Source of the DNA: an uncultured Clostridia bacterium
GTDB taxonomy: Bacteria; Bacillota; Clostridia; Oscillospirales; CAG-272
DNA length: 37,557 bases
NCBI GenBank assembly: GCA_947632135.1
Contig: CANRNZ010000006.1
Coordinates: 1-37,557 of the forward strand
Direction: 5' to 3'
Notes under the pieces: model-generated
Databases searched by the model: none
The model's input: the letters and a program-made list of their open reading frames with translations, nothing else
Told to the model about the DNA's origin: nothing
Program-made: the position numbers and the translations under genes
Shown: positions 1,722-3,729 of the stretch, in pieces
How positions within the stretch are numbered: position 1 is the stretch's first letter
Layout: the number at the start of each line of letters is the position of its first letter

Positions 1722-1835
1722 TATAAAGTATCGGGAAAATTATAAAGCTCTTTATAAAGCTCTTCATTTTTCCACTCGGCAAGTAAGGTTTTACACAGCT
1801 TGAAGCTTATATGCCGAAAAATAAAATGAAGTTGT

Positions 1836-1865
1836 CGGGGAACCCTTGCGGTTCCCCGCATTTTT
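1836..1865 (+). terminator. Rho-independent terminator after the solute-binding gene
   Basis: CGGGGAACC-CTTGC-GGTTCCCCG followed by CATTTTT. Confidence 0.85.
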
Positions 1866-1903
1866 CCGTCGGAATGCTCAAAAAAAGGAGTTACAAATAT
1901 AAA

Positions 1904-3028
1904 ATGGCAGTAACTGTTCTTCTGTTTGCGCTCGGTCTTTTGTGCCTTGTAAAGGGCGGGGACATGTTTGTCGACGGTGCGTGCAAAATCGCGAAGAGAT
2001 TTCGCGTGCCCGAGTTTCTTATCGGCGCGACCGTTGTGTCAATAGGGACGACTCTGCCCGAGGTCATGGTCTCGGCGACGGGCGCCGTCGGGGGAAACGG
2101 GGAAATGGCATACGGCAACGCCGTCGGTTCCGTGATATGCAACACGGCGCTTATTGCCGCGATAACTCTTATCGCCGCGCCGACCTCAAGGGTCGACAGG
2201 AAAACTCTGCGCACGCCTGTCGCTTTCTTTTTCCTCTCGGCGGCTTTTTTCTGCTGCATTTCGTACTTTATAGGCGATTTTTCAAGACTCAGCGGAATCG
2301 TTCTTCTTCTCATATTTATCGTGTATATGGTTTTCACGACGTCGTGTGAGATGAGAAAGGGAAGAAAGGATCCTCCGACGTCCGAAAACGCCGACGAACC
2401 GAATGATTCGAATAATTCGAATAATTTAAATAATTCTAAAGATTCGAGTAATTCGAATGATGCGAATGACGCGAATGATTCGAATGATGCGAAAAATTCC
2501 GAAACGGAAAACATTGAAAATAAAAAGCCCGAGGACGGGGGAAAAAATCGGGGCGGCGCGAGACGTGAGATTCTGATGCTTGTTATCGGAGCCGCAATAG
2601 TCGCCGTCGGAGCGAGACTTTTAATTGATAACGGAACAAAAATAGCGACCGCGCTCGGCGTTCCCGATTCGGTCATCGCTCTCACGCTTGTCGCCGTCGG
2701 CACGTCTCTCCCCGAGCTTGTGACCGCCGTCACATCAATTATAAAAGGGCACGGGGCGCTCTCCCTCGGAAACATCGTCGGGGCAAACCTTTTCAACCTC
2801 GTTCTGGTGCTCGGCGCCTCGGTCACACTGTCCCCGTTCAGTCTCCCCGCTGAAAAAACTATCTTTGGGGTAAACGCGTCGCTCGCGGTCGATTTGCCCG
2901 TGATGCTTGTGGTAATGCTGATACTTACCCTCCCCGCGCTTATTCGTGAAAAGCTCTCTCGCTTTCAGGGAATAGCACTGCTCTTAATATATGTCTCTTT
3001 CTGCGCTTTTCAGTTCGTCGGAGCGTGA
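1904..3028 (+). CDS. Calcium/sodium antiporter (CaCA family, YrbG-like)
   Basis: Two alpha-repeat motifs (GATVVSIGTTLPEV, TLVAVGTSLPELVTA), multi-TM; start placed at ATG 1904 after AAAGGAG instead of the upstream ORF start at 1811. Confidence 0.88.
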   Translation: MAVTVLLFALGLLCLVKGGDMFVDGACKIAKRFRVPEFLIGATVVSIGTTLPEVMVSATGAVGGNGEMAYGNAVGSVICNTALIAAITLIAAPTSRVDRKTLRTPVAFFFLSAAFFCCISYFIGDFSRLSGIVLLLIFIVYMVFTTSCEMRKGRKDPPTSENADEPNDSNNSNNLNNSKDSSNSNDANDANDSNDAKNSETENIENKKPEDGGKNRGGARREILMLVIGAAIVAVGARLLIDNGTKIATALGVPDSVIALTLVAVGTSLPELVTAVTSIIKGHGALSLGNIVGANLFNLVLVLGASVTLSPFSLPAEKTIFGVNASLAVDLPVMLVVMLILTLPALIREKLSRFQGIALLLIYVSFCAFQFVGA

Positions 3029-3030
3029 TT

Positions 3031-3102
3031 AGTGGGCAGTGGGCAGTGTTCAGTGGACAGTGGTCAGTGGACAGTGGGCAGTGGTCAGTGAATAGTGGGC
3101 AG
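3031..3102. repeat. Heptanucleotide tandem array, consensus AGTGGnC, 10 units
   Basis: AGTGGGC AGTGGGC AGTGTTC AGTGGAC AGTGGTC AGTGGAC AGTGGGC AGTGGTC AGTGAAT AGTGGGC AG read directly. Confidence 0.95.
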
Positions 3103-3136
3103 AAAAATCGGCAGGGTGCAAGCTCTGCCGATTTTT
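3103..3136 (+). terminator. Intrinsic terminator downstream of the antiporter
   Basis: AAAAATCGGCAG ... CTGCCGATTTTT perfect 12-bp stem ending in a T-run. Confidence 0.8.
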
Positions 3137-3147
3137 GTTGTGAACCT

Positions 3148-3314
3148 TTTTTGATGATGTACCGCCTTCGGCGGTATGATGTCGCGCCTTACGGTGCAAT
3201 GAAATATGAAGCGATGTTTGCCCCATGTCCCCGAAGGGGACACATCATTCGGCAGCGCCGACATCATGGGTAAAGCCCGCATCATTTGCCCGAGAGGGCA
3301 AACATCATTAAAAA
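3148..3314. repeat. 167-bp element with terminal inverted repeats and an internal hairpin array
   Basis: Termini TTTTTGATGATGT / ACATCATTAAAAA pair over 13 bp (one G-T); internal hairpins TACCGCC-TTC-GGCGGTA, TGTCCCC-GAA-GGGGACA, TCGGC-AGC-GCCGA, TTTGCCC-GAGA-GGGCAAA separated by ATGATGT/ACATCAT motifs. Confidence 0.75.
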
Positions 3315-3321
3315 TAAAAAA

Positions 3322-3355
3322 CGAAAAAGGCGACTGCTTTCGCAATCGCCTTTTT
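3322..3355 (-). terminator. Terminator downstream of tRNA-Glu (possibly bidirectional)
   Basis: AAAAAGGCGACTGC...GCAATCGCCTTTTT hairpin directly 3' of the tRNA on the minus strand. Confidence 0.75.
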
Positions 3356-3357
3356 GA

Positions 3358-3432
3358 TGGTGACCCGTGGGAGAATCGAACTCCCGTTTTCGCCGTGAGA
3401 GGGCGATGTCTTAGCCGCTTGACCAACGGGCC
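3358..3432 (-). tRNA. tRNA-Glu (anticodon CTC), CCA encoded
   Basis: Reverse complement GGCCCGTTGGTCAAGCGGCTAAGACATCGCCCTCTCACGGCGAAAACGGGAGTTCGAATCTCCCACGGGTCACCA: cloverleaf arms, GTTCGAATC T-loop, CTCTCAC anticodon loop. Confidence 0.92.
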
Positions 3433-3525: not shown

Positions 3526-3566
3526 ATTCCCAAAGTAAATTCCACTGTGGAATTTACTTTGGGAAT
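3526..3566. repeat. 20-bp perfect palindrome with 1-nt centre
   Basis: ATTCCCAAAGTAAATTCCAC-T-GTGGAATTTACTTTGGGAAT. Confidence 0.95.
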
Positions 3567-3729
3567 CTACCGGCGAAAGCGCCGTCGCCGAGGGCGACTT
3601 TGCCCTTGACACACAGATGTAAGAATGTTAAAATAATTTAAGACGGAAAATAAGAAGGAAAAGGCGTAAAAGCTTTTGGCGCTTTTTAATATGCGCAAAG
3701 CTCATAAAAATCAAGAGGATAAAATTCAA

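Follow-up and report, generated by a model that had tools for sequence, protein, structure and literature searches.

The element analyzed here occupies the interval between a tRNA-Glu gene and a convergent antiporter gene, and is flanked on one side by the terminator of the tRNA and on the other by that of the antiporter gene (Table 1). It lies in a window of 37,557 nucleotides, by which we mean the whole stretch of DNA under analysis. The original prediction had placed a 167-bp hierarchical palindrome at this position, and base-by-base re-reading of the window confirmed both its location and, to within a few bases, its coordinates. The palindrome is real, as both strands fold far beyond dinucleotide shuffles (z = -5.9 and -5.3 for the two strands, with 0 of 200 shuffles equal). 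Some details required adjustment. The inverted termini, TTTTTGATGATGT and ACATCATTAAAAA, do pair, but at 12 of the 13 positions claimed, and what had been described as at least four hairpins with mostly 7-bp stems proved to be six hairpins, just three of which have stems of 6-7 bp while the remaining stems are shorter. The ATGATGT and ACATCAT spacers said to separate the hairpins were located as read on the minus strand, which is also the functional reading direction, running from tRNA-Glu through its terminator into the element. Two folds compete within the element, because TTTGCC at the start of the left arm, part of the TTTGCCC extension of spacer 1, pairs either with the other arm of hairpin 1 or with the closing strand. 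A scan of the window with Rfam at the gathering level reported tRNA only. A short degenerate tandem repeat (CAGTGGACAGTGGTCAGTGG...) lies downstream of the antiporter stop codon, ahead of the terminator of that gene (3031-3102), and a palindrome, CCCAAAGTAAATTCCACTGTGGAATTTACTTTGGG, is present on the far side of tRNA-Glu (~3531-3568).

Table 1. Anatomy of the element and its flanks, in window coordinates
Feature	Position	Strand	Basis
Whole element, hierarchical palindrome	3148-3314	minus, read 3314 to 3148	fold, copies, covariance model R1
Spacer 1, ATGATGT on minus strand, left-arm start	3302-3308	minus	sequence reading and comparison of copies
Hairpin 1, TTTGCCC-TCTC-GGGCAAA	3285-3302	minus	hairpin location
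Spacer 2, ATGATGC on minus strand	3279-3285	minus	sequence reading
Hairpin 2, short stem	3268-3278	minus	hairpin location
Spacer 3, ATGATGT on minus strand	3261-3267	minus	sequence reading
Hairpin 3, TCGGC-GCT-GCCGA	3249-3261	minus	hairpin location
Spacer 4, ATGATGT on minus strand	3242-3248	minus	sequence reading
Hairpin 4, GTCCCC-TTC-GGGGAC	3227-3241	minus	hairpin location
Closing strand GGGGCAAACATCGC, complementary to left-arm start GATGTTTGCC	3211-3224	minus	most pairs kept in at least 25 of 28 copies
Hairpin 5 position, degenerate, lost in window copy	3199-3210	minus	comparison with other copies
Hairpin 6, GCACC-GTAA-GGCGC	3184-3197	minus	hairpin location
Right-arm spacer, ACATCAT on minus strand	3177-3183	minus	sequence reading
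Hairpin 7, TACCGCC-GAA-GGCGGTA	3160-3176	minus	hairpin location
Outermost right spacer ACATCATC on minus strand	3153-3160	minus	sequence reading
tRNA-Glu terminator, directly upstream of element	3324-3355	minus	
tRNA-Glu (CTC), transcription unit with element at its 3′ end	3358-3432	minus	
Terminator of convergent antiporter gene (1811-3028, plus), other flank of element	3103-3136	plus	

The structure in the window is not a chance arrangement, because its own genome holds nine copies, the weakest with E = 1e-9. A DNA search found the element in 22 of 59 relatives, and R1, a covariance model built on the first arm that matches the window at 3309-3189 (E 2e-25), detected it, with a threshold of E ≤ 1e-5, in 63 of the 199 genomes sampled from the order, figures drawn from a sample with many fragmented metagenome assemblies, whose contigs often end at repeats, and from pattern and model searches biased toward the TGATG class. 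The original prediction had staked its case on such a covariance-model search, on the existence of homologous copies and on compensatory change in the stems. Copies are present in its own genome and in relatives, and pairing is kept while sequence varies: among 324 distinct hairpins, 1806 of 1867 pairs are Watson-Crick. Named genomes with the pattern, once chance matches in unrelated genomes had been filtered out by R1, are for the most part assemblies designated 'Clostridia' or 'Oscillospiraceae' and obtained from gut samples, those of ruminants and deer included. In the open literature we found no report of comparable tRNA-linked palindromes. In IMG/VR, a 17-base core pattern occurs on 23 contigs and R1 confirms elements on just three of them (L247, L250 and L266), so that carriage by viruses was not concluded; filed as viral, these three contigs may derive from prophage edges or from host DNA that was misfiled.

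Complete copies follow one plan, which consists of a terminator hairpin and a run of T's, four TGATG-hairpin units, a closing strand, three CATCA-spaced hairpins and a CATCATT end. The closing strand of these copies, GGCAAACATCG, is the complement of the left-arm start, and most of its pairs are conserved as listed in Table 1. Applied to a mixed alignment, RNAalifold recovered only this closing stem because hairpin lengths vary among copies, and the hairpins were therefore scored individually: a perfectly paired hairpin, 4 bp or longer, is present in 299 of 520 inter-spacer segments, compared with 49 after shuffling.

Placement relative to neighboring genes obeys a strict rule. Of 120 oriented elements with an upstream feature nearby, 110 share their strand with that feature, whereas downstream strands are split 54:55 (Fisher p 7e-13). 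Of 113 model hits, 39 have an intact tRNA or tmRNA that ends 31-47 nt upstream, and other hosts are 3′ ends of protein genes, including those that we take, from their C-terminal sequences, to resemble the RNA methyltransferase RlmD (L367 and L368) and GMP synthase (L366). Orthologous tRNA-Glu loci of the same genus yielded neither an empty site nor a target-site duplication; they have diverged in both the terminator and the downstream DNA, so that insertion and divergence are indistinguishable there. Several tRNA 3′ ends (L150, L010/L154, L133, L156, L204, L223, L231, L296, L315 and L334) carry a second insert of ~140-215 bp, in which the intact tRNA is followed by a new terminator and often by a hairpin like CAGTCCGGTGGACTG together with an inverted, diverged duplicate of the tRNA 3′ end; next come 17-27 nt that repeat the tRNA 3′ end exactly (to CCA), beyond which lie the old terminator and the hairpin element. 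This insert has the appearance of an independent, very small insertion that targets tRNAs. Elements that do not follow a tRNA (L211, L212, L128, L115 and others) are often preceded by a recurrent hairpin without a T-run, CGGCGACCTGCGATAAAGCAGGTCGCCG or TAGCGTGATGCTCTTAACGGAGCATTCACGCTA, and then by AACGATG.

Besides TGATG/CATCA, the family includes the spacer classes TGATAT/ATATCA, GCGATAT/ATATCGC, TGAAG/CTTCA, TGAATT/AATTCA and a GTTATAT-like class. When a pattern search was allowed any combination of five codes, 151 of the 152 tabulated elements had identical codes in their left and right arms, and where several codes occur within one genome (L150, L294) each element is internally consistent. 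The two arms therefore change together, as base pairing or a single protein recognizing both orientations would require.

Several of the genes just behind elements belong to PF05635, the 23S rRNA-intervening sequence protein (E 6.5e-28; TIGR02436; PDB 2RLD by sequence), here called S23. An S23 gene follows 21 of 98 elements. In a search seeded with one S23 protein, the genes recovered were on the same strand as, and immediately behind, elements, with an R1 match at E<0.01 directly before the gene in about 25 of 29 evaluable loci and a same-strand tRNA within 450 nt upstream in 24 of 29. Relatives sampled by PF05635 only gave 4.8 hairpins per 300 nt upstream, versus 1.9 in control windows, and a same-strand tRNA upstream in 8 of 29 loci, versus 0 on the opposite strand. 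Most sampled S23 genes of the order stand right behind such an element. A phylum-wide S23 sample showed no upstream tRNA and a mean of 1.0 hairpin in its 26 scored loci, and the coupling therefore looks specific to the lineage studied. Mapping the seven spacer classes onto a tree of 55 S23 proteins takes 7 changes, against a minimum of 6 and a shuffled mean of 30.9 (0 of 200 as low), for a short protein of 119 columns placed by one quick tree method with several weakly supported forks, and with many loci coming from searches seeded by elements or by one S23 protein. S23 sub-clade and spacer code thus match almost one to one, an agreement that could stem from linked inheritance alone, without binding. 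Although about a fifth of elements are accompanied by an S23/IVP ORF, the window copy is not, and we found no PF05635 gene in its genome (93% complete), in which the nine copies are therefore presumably relics or served in trans. Single small accessory genes are found between consecutive elements behind tRNAs (L021, L294, L289, L017, L150 and L176); these encode DUF3990, a metallophosphoesterase, DUF218, a lipoprotein-like protein and a 142-aa protein without a Pfam match. At L311, a degenerate tandem array (TGATGACGCTGACGCTGATGATG...) at 363-700 lies behind an S23 gene.

The family is related to Gut-1, a non-coding RNA of the human gut without a cultivated carrier (Weinberg et al. 2010, PMC2864571), for which the listed papers offer the original description only. 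Against the Gut-1 model, RF01706, the window copy scores 28.1 bits, under the gathering cut-off of 50 bits. Two sister elements (L022 and L029), found at a permissive threshold, score 38.9 and 38.2 bits (E 6.6e-5 and 9.9e-5), also below the cut-off. The alignments of the window copy and of both sister elements span the whole model, with its three hairpins and constant spacers in the same order. True Gut-1 elements elsewhere score 50-78 bits. Across the class, RF01706 gives tight plus/minus pairs of matches, up to 29 matches per genome, and Gut-1 loci have a two-armed plan like that of the window family, with TGAAAT/ATTTCA spacers, ~30 nt behind tRNAs. The L150 contig carries both kinds, with R1 elements at 3376 and 4003 and one Gut-1 element, both arms of which are above the Rfam cut-off (65.6 and 56.4 bits) and which R1 in turn scores at 47 bits. 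Two bona fide Gut-1 loci (L045 and L050) each lie upstream of an S23 gene. The 'Gut-1 RNA' of RF01706 is one arm of a TGAAAT/ATTTCA-spaced sister element.

The Rfam entry for Gut-1 assumes that its subject acts as RNA, and a structured RNA was among the identities originally proposed for the window element, which could be transcribed by terminator read-through or from a promoter of its own. The homology to Gut-1, including the above-cut-off arms at L150, and the UNCG-like CTNCG loops of the left arm are consistent with this idea, as are loci such as L368, at which the element separates a coding gene from the S23 ribosome-binding site with no evident promoter in between and is therefore probably transcribed. 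Real RNA stems, however, strongly prefer G-U over A-C. The mismatches in the element stems comprise 26 G-T and 16 A-C, against 82 and 7, respectively, for the acceptor stems of tRNAs at those loci (p 5e-5), so that the elements show little or no such preference and no clear excess of G-U. Both strands fold equally, and the loop pattern, with CTNCG on the left and CGNAG on the right, is itself palindromic, which makes the strands equivalent and gives neither the preference. At tRNA loci, moreover, the element is situated between the terminator and the promoter-like boxes of the following S23 gene, and Gut-1 matches arrive as plus/minus pairs. A function as RNA accordingly seems unlikely to us, and selection or a copying process acting at the DNA level would be the simpler reading. 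Action on DNA could also be that of a non-mobile host element, selected because it blocks read-through, or because it binds gyrase or a nucleoid protein, downstream of highly transcribed genes. Strict orientation at 3′ ends and the preference for tRNAs are what such an insulator or topological element would display, yet its presence would hardly be expected to be as patchy as the genome counts above indicate. Tandem copies (L202), similar copies behind different tRNAs in different families, linked S23 and accessory genes and the occurrence of several codes per genome also speak against a host function of this kind, which we regard as distinctly unlikely.

Among mobile elements, the original prediction named MITEs and REP/BIME arrays. 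Terminal inverted repeats and a multicopy non-coding body are both present, and a MITE-like element is the best supported of the three proposed identities, as an analogy. A REP/BIME array moved by a RAYT (Y1) transposase would account for the oriented hairpin units and their inverted arrangement, but the genome of the window copy has no Y1 transposase, and neither do several element-bearing genomes (G003, G026, G046, G050, G054 and G058), while several Y1-bearing genomes are without the element. With zero model matches near 30 Y1 loci in relatives, we rejected this hypothesis, which is extremely improbable. Neither a recombinase nor a transposase was found linked to the elements in an analysis that targeted RAYT/Y1. 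The elements might instead be recombination sites around single-gene cassettes, in integron-like arrays anchored at tRNA genes, as suggested by mostly co-oriented runs of tRNA, element, small gene and element, and by the presence of another element within 1.5 kb for 8 of 27 elements with full flanks. Paired elements around one gene nevertheless often differ in code (L110, L150, L162 and L294), a single code-chimeric element among 152 means that exchange within elements was not seen, no integrase was noticed, and the unbiased set has few neighbor pairs. A literal integron is not supported, and we consider cassette boundaries of this type very unlikely. A search with an ART-like cargo gene yielded four homologues only, too few for a test of cassette exchange.

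Homology among copies, a fixed anatomy, arms that change code together, the orientation rule and S23 linkage with its clade-code match are the observations from which we interpret the locus. The window copy is probably a solo, MITE-like copy of an S23-linked palindromic DNA element that targets the 3′ ends of tRNA and other genes, movement being the conjectural part of this proposal. The palindrome is composed of oriented hairpin units joined head to head, four forward and three reverse, and occupies the 3′ ends of transcription units, tRNA genes above all, in a single fixed orientation. The fuller unit comprises the element, a PF05635/S23 four-helix-bundle gene and usually one small accessory gene. 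The S23 protein may bind the spacer/hairpin units of its cognate element, which could adopt a cruciform-like structure when single-stranded or supercoiled, and the unit may move, or may once have moved, as DNA into terminators and tRNA 3′ ends. S23 is not a known transposase, nor is one known for the element; a strand-transfer enzyme would presumably act in trans. S23-less copies, including that in the window, would then be non-autonomous or decayed. We offer more tentatively, as a possibility short of an even chance, that these units represent an undescribed class of DNA mobile element in which S23, as the specificity factor for the nested palindrome, reads the spacer code of its clade and guides or drives the element into sites behind the terminators of tRNA and other genes, with Gut-1 and the window element as solo copies. 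PF05635/S23, a common family of unknown function, thereby gains a testable hypothesis, namely that each sub-clade recognizes its own short spacer code, and the orphan Rfam RNA Gut-1 can be re-read as half of a DNA palindrome. If the units do move, they would constitute a small-element system for loading accessory genes downstream of tRNAs in uncultured Clostridia of the gut and rumen.

Comparison with known systems places the family near several of them. Like MITEs, the elements are short, multicopy and non-coding, with inverted ends and a longer gene-bearing relative, but their interior consists of nested hairpins. They share with REP/BIME sequences oriented hairpin units in head-to-head arrays, and differ in motif (there is no GTAG), in a fixed count and length, and in the absence of RAYT linkage. 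The resemblance to Gut-1 extends to at least three successive hairpins, a constant TGAnnT spacer, the same polarity and a position ~30 nt behind tRNA genes. The window copy, however, is spaced by TGATG/CATCA rather than TGAAAT/ATTTCA and scores below the family cut-off, and Rfam Gut-1 is a single arm, modeled as RNA and first known from human gut metagenomes only. PF05635 proteins resemble, in sequence and structure, the Avd protein of diversity-generating retroelements (PMC10053308), although we noticed neither a reverse transcriptase nor a template or variable repeat at the S23 loci. Intervening sequences of 23S rRNA with an S23/IVP ORF, such as that of Coxiella, likewise associate a hairpin-forming insert with a stable RNA gene and a four-helix-bundle protein of the S23 type, and a selfish character or former mobility has been suggested for their S23 ORFs (PMC4990558). 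In contrast to these insertions within 23S rRNA, the elements described here lie at the 3′ ends of tRNA or protein genes, place a multi-hairpin array before the ORF and also exist as solo copies.
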